Assembly: GCF_009601705.1 (NCBI RefSeq)
Contig: NZ_CP045687.1
Span: 1,772,001 to 1,836,000, forward strand
Reading direction: 5' to 3'
Source: Sulfolobus sp. E5-1-F
Lineage (GTDB): Archaea; Thermoproteota; Thermoprotei_A; Sulfolobales; Sulfolobaceae
Length of the DNA stretch: 64,000 nt
The stretch's first letter is position 1; every line of letters begins with the position of its first letter. The notes under the pieces are model-generated. The model was not told where the DNA came from and ran no database searches. It saw nothing but the letters and a program-made list of their open reading frames with translations. Position numbers and translations under genes: made by a program. Shown one piece after another: positions 56,789-57,817 of the stretch.

Positions 56789-56839
56789 ATAAAAGGAAAA
56801 ATAGTGAGTTAAGTATCTTTCTACTTGATAAAAAATGCA

Positions 56840-56889
56840 TCAGCTTTGGTGTCTTATATCATTTCATCAAAAATACCAGCCTTCATCAT
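56840..56889 (-). ncRNA. C/D-box 2'-O-methylation guide sRNA (candidate sR-C)
   Basis: Minus strand from 56889: box C ATGATGA (56883-56889), guide AGGCTGGTATTT (12 nt), box D' variant TTGA (56867-56870), spacer TGAA, box C' variant ATGATAT (56856-56862), guide AAGACACCAAAG (12 nt), box D CTGA (56840-56843). 50 nt. Box C begins directly after the TAA stop of the ribbon-helix-helix gene, so the RNA is probably processed from the same transcript. It also lies in the 5' region of trmI. Confidence 0.82.
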
Positions 56890-57060: not shown

Positions 57061-57074
57061 CTTAATTTTATAAC
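57061..57074 (-). promoter_or_regulatory. Promoter of the RHH gene / sR-C unit
   Basis: Minus-strand GTTATAAAATTAAG, centre about 26 bp before the RHH ATG; it would drive both the RHH mRNA and sR-C. Confidence 0.5.
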
Positions 57075-57085
57075 ATTTATAAGAG

Positions 57086-57817
57086 TTAGCCCGGTAATGT
57101 AGACCATAAATGATTAAAATATACTGTGCCAATGTCTATGAGATATTTGTGATTTGAAAACAGACCCGTTAATACATCATTATTCTTTATGATTAGGAGG
57201 ATTGAGTCAGAAGTAATTATACCACTTCCAAATAGAGATTGAGCTCTTTTAACTTGAACAGATGCAATTTCTGGAAAATTTACGCTTTTATCCACTATTA
57301 TTTTAGTTTCTGCCTTAAGCGAGTTGGCCTTTAATATATCTATAATGTCACTTCTCACAAACTCTTGATAGGATATTGCAACTAAATACATCTTGCTATA
57401 ATCCTTTAGTAGCCTTAACGCACTATCCATAATGTTATCTCTTGGTATAACAACTATATTATATGCCATATTAGAAGAAAAAATAGTTGATATTGGTTCT
57501 ATGAATTGTTTTTCGAACTCATCTAATTTCTCTTGAAAAGTGATTTTAATCTTATTCCATACATCCCTTAAAGGAATTGCTTCATAAACCGCAGGCCTTT
57601 TGTCTATTTTTATAACCCATCCTCTACCTTCAAGTTTAGATAAAATATTATATACTTTAGTGTATGGTAAGCTTAACTTATTTGAGACTTCTCTTGCGGT
57701 TGCTCTTCCATATATTAAGAGATATGAATATACCTTTAATTCCGATTTTGATATTCCAAAAACCGAGGCAAACTTCGATACTCTGCTGATTGTCTCTTCT
57801 AATAATTCAGATGACAT
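57086..57817 (-). CDS. TrmB-family transcriptional regulator
   Basis: 243 aa. Winged helix near 'SELKVYSYLLIYGRATAREVSNKLSLPYTKVYNILSKLEGRGWV' (pieces RATAREVSNKL and LPYTKVYNILSKLEGRGWV, about 25-70), then a ~150-residue effector domain ('IPLRDVWNKI' onward). TrmB regulators sense sugars or other metabolites. Short relative to full TrmB (~340), so the effector domain is reduced. Lies upstream of the RHH gene on the same strand. Confidence 0.85.
   Translation of the reverse strand: MSSELLEETISRVSKFASVFGISKSELKVYSYLLIYGRATAREVSNKLSLPYTKVYNILSKLEGRGWVIKIDKRPAVYEAIPLRDVWNKIKITFQEKLDEFEKQFIEPISTIFSSNMAYNIVVIPRDNIMDSALRLLKDYSKMYLVAISYQEFVRSDIIDILKANSLKAETKIIVDKSVNFPEIASVQVKRAQSLFGSGIITSDSILLIIKNNDVLTGLFSNHKYLIDIGTVYFNHLWSTLPG

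Follow-up and report, generated by a model that had tools for sequence, protein, structure and literature searches.

A conserved C/D box dual-guide sRNA at the stop codon of a ribbon-helix-helix gene in Sulfolobaceae, with predicted targets in 16S rRNA helix 18

The minus strand of the window (the whole 64-kb stretch of DNA analysed here) carries a C/D box sRNA gene directly after a small gene for a ribbon-helix-helix (RHH) protein (Table 1). The initial annotation had described the motif as ATGATGA, 12 nt, TTGA, 4 nt, ATGATAT, 12 nt and CTGA, and we found exactly this layout on the minus strand from 56889 to 56840, the whole element reading ATGATGA AGGCTGGTATTT TTGA TGAA ATGATAT AAGACACCAAAG CTGA. 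The claim that no spacer separates the RHH stop codon from box C was equally accurate, as the TAA at 56892-56890 abuts position 56889. The element carries box C (RUGAUGA) close to one end and box D (CUGA) close to the other, with D' and C' boxes inside, as archaeal C/D box guide sRNAs do, and both guides agree with the norm of about 10-12 nt for this class. Single-strand folding z-scores (-1.35 for the window sRNA and 0.16 for the copy at locus L016) were uninformative, as expected for C/D RNAs.

Table 1. Features of the RHH-sRNA-trmI locus (positions in the window).
Feature	Position	Strand	Remark
TrmB-type HTH regulator gene	57086-57817		ends 43 nt before RHH gene, kept there in Sulfolobaceae
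TATA box CTTATAA of RHH-sRNA unit	57083-57077	minus	-41 to -35 from RHH ATG
RHH gene (RHH_1, CdrS-like)	57042-56890	minus	50 codons, probable sRNA host
C/D box dual-guide sRNA	56840-56889	minus	C/D/C'/D' layout, conservation
Box C ATGATGA	56889-56883	minus	abuts TAA stop of RHH gene
5' (D') guide AGGCTGGTATTT, 12 nt	56882-56871	minus	predicted pairing with 16S helix 18
Box D' TTGA	56870-56867	minus	D'1-C'5 compensatory pair
D'-C' spacer TGAA, 4 nt	56866-56863	minus
Box C' ATGATAT	56862-56856	minus
3' (D) guide AAGACACCAAAG, 12 nt	56855-56844	minus	predicted pairing with 16S helix 18
Box D CTGA	56843-56840	minus
TTTTTT tract	56830-56835	minus	probable archaeal terminator of RHH-sRNA unit
trmI (tRNA m1A methyltransferase family, GCD14/TrmI-like)	56788-56018	minus	conserved downstream neighbour of sRNA

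A strict C/D pattern matched once in the 64-kb window and in none of 60 dinucleotide shuffles, and a sequence model built from 49 sequences of relatives, the window's own copy among them, had a single match in the whole genome, at this locus (E 2.7e-14). These results led us to reject the reading of the element as a chance motif. No Rfam family could be assigned at the gathering score, the nearest archaeal sRNA family being sR5 with 16 of 40 bits; this missing match is the one point that speaks for a fortuitous string rather than an RNA gene, an explanation to which we attach practically no weight given the conservation, covariation and target match described below.

The sRNA was present in all 31 Sulfolobaceae genomes examined. 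It was located at the RHH stop codon in 30 of them, with box C itself supplying the stop in 13 of these 30. A DNA similarity search returned 29 Sulfolobaceae loci, every one with the sRNA at the RHH stop, and all 29 shared box C, a guide of 12 nt that includes GCTGGTRWT, boxes D' and C', GACAYCA followed by 3 nt, and CTGA. The remaining two genomes were G016, in which the RHH protein is more diverged and its stop codon lies within box C, and G011, in which the sRNA is kept 10 nt before trmI and the RHH gene is found several kb away on the opposite strand. Searched more widely, the sRNA model matched 57 of the 60 relatives and, at class level, 121 of 147 genomes; in both sets the sRNA was almost always single-copy. 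A pattern comprising both guides also matched sequences from Methanomethylicia, Ignisphaera, Vulcanisaeta, Thermofilaceae and Hecatella. In the Methanomethylicia copies (L103, L104, L106, L111, L117, L118, L120, L124, L127-L129, L136, L140 and L143) a terminal stem, GGGCT...AGCCC, encloses the sRNA, and box D reads CAGA in most of them.

We then considered the C/D and C'/D' motifs in an alignment of 46 distinct sRNA sequences made from sequence alone. The C5-D1 G-C pair of the terminal k-turn was invariant. The D'1-C'5 position was paired in 97.8% of the sequences by varying, compensatory combinations (UA in 19, CG in 15, AU in 8, UG in 2 and GC in 1, with one sequence unpaired), and its covariation score was reached by none of 500 shuffles. 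Both motifs are thus compatible with pairing in a k-turn and k-loop, respectively.

Potential rRNA targets were computed on the 16S genes of same-genus and same-family genomes, because the window genome's own 16S gene is masked. The masked region, filled with N, covers the 16S and part of the 23S rRNA (G000:C1:1397501-1400000, equivalent to L032:5502-8001). A search of the guides in rRNA had been suggested in the initial annotation, and both guides matched 16S helix 18. The 5' guide formed 10 contiguous Watson-Crick pairs with nt 532-541 in the same-genus genome G003; E. coli numbering was set here by the 515F primer anchor. The same 10 contiguous pairs, with the 16S segment AATACCAGCC/T, were found in eight of the nine Sulfolobaceae genomes for which both sequences were available, and in the ninth, G007, nine contiguous pairs followed one mismatch. 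The 3' guide paired with CTGGTGTC at nt 512-519 through 7-9 contiguous pairs or with one G-U; the window's own 3' guide had only 7 contiguous pairs, to nt 513-519 of the same-genus 16S, compared with 8-9 in several relatives. These matches fall on opposite strands of helix 18. Applying the D+5 rule predicts methylation at Am535 by the 5' guide and at Gm514 by the 3' guide (E. coli numbering).

Guide and target also varied together. In all 10 family genomes compared, C541 in the 16S was accompanied by G in the guide and U541 by A, and in genus g4 the U534C change in the 16S (seen in one locus) was accompanied by an A-to-G change in the guide (seen in four loci). Because these genomes are related, the co-variation amounts to few independent events. 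Outside Sulfolobaceae the pairing at position 541 failed in G039 and was a wobble in G059, which also had a mismatch at 538. In the full 16S-23S operons of seven relatives the 5' guide had no other contiguous match as long, whereas the 3' guide match alone was not unique in these operons. The register of the 3' guide on the 16S was the same in all genomes compared, and its predicted target is convincing only through this fixed register and its closeness to the 5' guide site. A scan near 30 tRNA genes gave scattered partial matches. Together, conservation, covariation and complementarity bear out the initial proposal of a modification guide RNA and identify the element as a true C/D box sRNA with two guides for rRNA.

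Four sRNAs, Sac sR115, Tte sR114, Pca sR28 and Iho sR21, all with a D' guide directed at A512 of the 16S (E. coli A535), were described from RNA-seq by Dennis et al. 2015 (PMC4644070), who predicted that the D guides of the Sac, Tte and Pca RNAs target G491. Sac sR115 comes from S. acidocaldarius, a different species from that of the window, but it is likewise a dual-guide C/D sRNA with a D' guide to A535, and its two sites in helix 18 are 21 nt apart, the same spacing as for the window sRNA, whose D guide matches 21 nt upstream of the D' site. In that study G491 corresponds to E. coli G515 and not to G514 as given by our anchor, a discrepancy that most likely stems from an offset in numbering or alignment. 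Since the published sR115 targets are the same as those predicted for the window sRNA, and since the latter is single-copy, we identify it as the presumptive ortholog of S. acidocaldarius sR115.

The product of the RHH gene matched PF01402 (2.4e-08). Its best NCBIfam match was CdrS with 38.6 bits (cut-off 100), and it scored 33.8 bits with aCcr1 (cut-off 60); neither identity is assigned, as both scores fall short of the curated cut-offs, that for CdrS by far. The protein resembles CdrS, a haloarchaeal cell-division regulator (PMC7439475), in being a short RHH_1 protein, but no ftsZ2 neighbour was seen at the locus and a role in cell division is only putative. No RHH gene was found in the viral contigs searched. 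In Sulfolobaceae the RHH protein has 48-50 aa, whereas in the sampled loci of other families it is generally longer, at about 59-77 aa (lengths of ORFs with uncertain start codons).

The junction between the RHH gene and the sRNA varied in detail across the 29 loci: box C contained the entire stop codon in 12 and shared a single base with it in 4, the two abutted in 7 and a gap of 1-4 nt separated them in 6. The sRNA thus abuts the ORF 3' end in the window and overlaps it in 16 of the 29 loci. According to a 2021 review (PMC7994747, citing Tripp et al. 2017), overlap with the 3' end of an ORF is seen for about 25% of archaeal C/D sRNA genes, the stop codon lies within box C in almost half of these, and most archaeal C/D sRNAs use the promoter of a neighbour and require no more than their internal boxes for maturation. 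The locus resembles this class (Tripp et al. 2017; PMC7994747) in having the stop at or in box C and in apparently needing no promoter of its own; it differs in that a single gene has kept the arrangement through almost the entire family and in that box D is immediately followed by an oligo-T tract. Both the type of sRNA and the gene arrangement are therefore already known.

Could the junction be a regulatory device, in which excision of the sRNA or binding of L7Ae to box C sets the stability or translation of the RHH mRNA? The retention of the junction in nearly all family genomes and the overlap of stop codon and box C at many loci would fit such a role, and in S. acidocaldarius L7Ae is known from the literature to act through k-turns in controlling some mRNAs. 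However, the distance from stop to box C is not fixed, ranging from overlap to 4 nt, G011 keeps the sRNA with its RHH gene elsewhere, and published reporter tests of 3'-overlapping sRNAs found neutral or slightly negative effects (2021 review, PMC7994747). We consider this explanation improbable, and control of the RHH mRNA by sRNA excision, which the initial annotation had proposed to test, is unsupported.

The sRNA would be expressed from the promoter of the RHH gene. The initial annotation had placed this promoter at 57061-57074; the conserved TATA element instead lies at 57083-57077. Of the 29 loci, 27 have the sequence CTTAWAA at -40 to -42 relative to the RHH start codon, and the remaining two have a near variant there. 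In 26 of the 29, box D is followed within 11 nt by an oligo-T tract of at least four residues. An internal promoter within the RHH gene was sought with a promoter profile and by synonymous conservation, but no site inside the gene scored well and nothing promoter-like was found between RHH and the sRNA. The conserved TATA element and oligo-T tract and the lack of signs of an internal promoter make a single RHH-sRNA transcript the simplest reading and a likely one. An alternative is that the sRNA has its own promoter within the RHH coding sequence and that its adjacency to RHH is incidental. Indeed, the Phe-Ile codons (RHH codons 39-40) form a TTTATA or TTTATT stretch at most loci, about 29-40 nt upstream of box C and thus near the spacing of an archaeal TATA box. 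Yet the distance of this stretch to box C shifts with RHH length and spacer, codons 37-47 show no synonymous constraint except for Phe39 TTT, and the self-trained RHH promoter profile scores about 0 or below at the internal site compared with 8-18 at the RHH promoter. An internal promoter is therefore unlikely in our view, although less so than a regulatory junction.

We are highly confident of the following overall explanation: the element is a canonical archaeal C/D dual-guide sRNA, orthologous to sR115, that would serve as a methylation guide for helix 18 and would be made from the RHH transcript. The sRNA is expected to be bound by L7Ae, Nop5 and fibrillarin, and genes for fibrillarin and Nop5 were found in the window genome. 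Each of its two guides would pair with one strand of 16S helix 18 (the 530 loop in the decoding centre), and the two would direct ribose methylation to A535 and G514 (E. coli numbering) and probably also keep helix 18 open during folding. In Sulfolobaceae the sRNA would use the RHH promoter and derive from the 3' end of the small RHH gene's transcript; we propose that the mature sRNA is trimmed out of this transcript because the RNP protects it.

The next gene had been named as trmI, and this proved correct. The order TrmB-type HTH, RHH, sRNA and trmI was found in 28 of the 29 Sulfolobaceae loci, and in the other (L026) the contig ends upstream. We examined flanks of about 2 kb in 58 sampled sRNA loci outside Sulfolobaceae: trmI followed the sRNA within 400 nt, usually after 2-33 nt, in 40 of them, including loci of families f3, f4, f5, f10 and f14c (among L178-L237), and an RHH gene lay 117-1067 nt upstream of the sRNA in 31. 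The tight RHH junction is thus a feature of Sulfolobaceae, and the sRNA-trmI neighbourhood looks older than the zero-gap RHH junction. In the lineage of the window the sRNA and trmI are probably transcribed separately, because about 50 nt and an oligo-T tract lie between them. A plausible history starts from an old sRNA-trmI neighbourhood with an RHH gene upstream; in Sulfolobaceae the RHH gene may then have lost its tail, with the stop moving to box C, and the gap between sRNA and trmI may have widened and gained the oligo-T tract. In genus g8 (L027 and L029) RHH, sRNA and trmI nearly touch and box D has no oligo-T tract nearby, an arrangement that looks intermediate.

We also considered that the CdrS-like RHH gene, the decoding-centre guide and the tRNA methyltransferase gene form a coordination unit coupling growth or division to ribosome and tRNA maturation, with autoregulation of RHH controlling the output of the guide. 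If so, the three genes would have stayed side by side for the sake of the link that expressing them jointly makes between the regulator and the maturation of ribosomes and tRNA; we regard this as very improbable.

The function proposed for the sRNA is ordinary, and what the locus adds to a known family and arrangement is its strong conservation and the history of its neighbourhood. The target, the 530 loop, is the region with which the small subunit monitors codon-anticodon pairing. Guide RNAs of archaea have a reputation for rapid evolution, whereas this sRNA keeps both target sites in 121 of the 147 class genomes. Within one family its host neighbourhood appears to have changed, from a place next to trmI to one at the RHH stop. 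Wide conservation together with this change of host therefore provides a clean case for studying promoter acquisition and the conversion of box C to a stop codon. A literature search covering openly accessible papers found neither an account of how strongly the sRNA locus is conserved nor a description of the sRNA-trmI link; the older neighbourhood and the Sulfolobaceae-limited RHH junction are apparently new to the literature. In family f5 (L182, L183 and L196) the order is S25e, sRNA and trmI, with 11-26 nt between the end of a ribosomal S25e-like gene and the sRNA.
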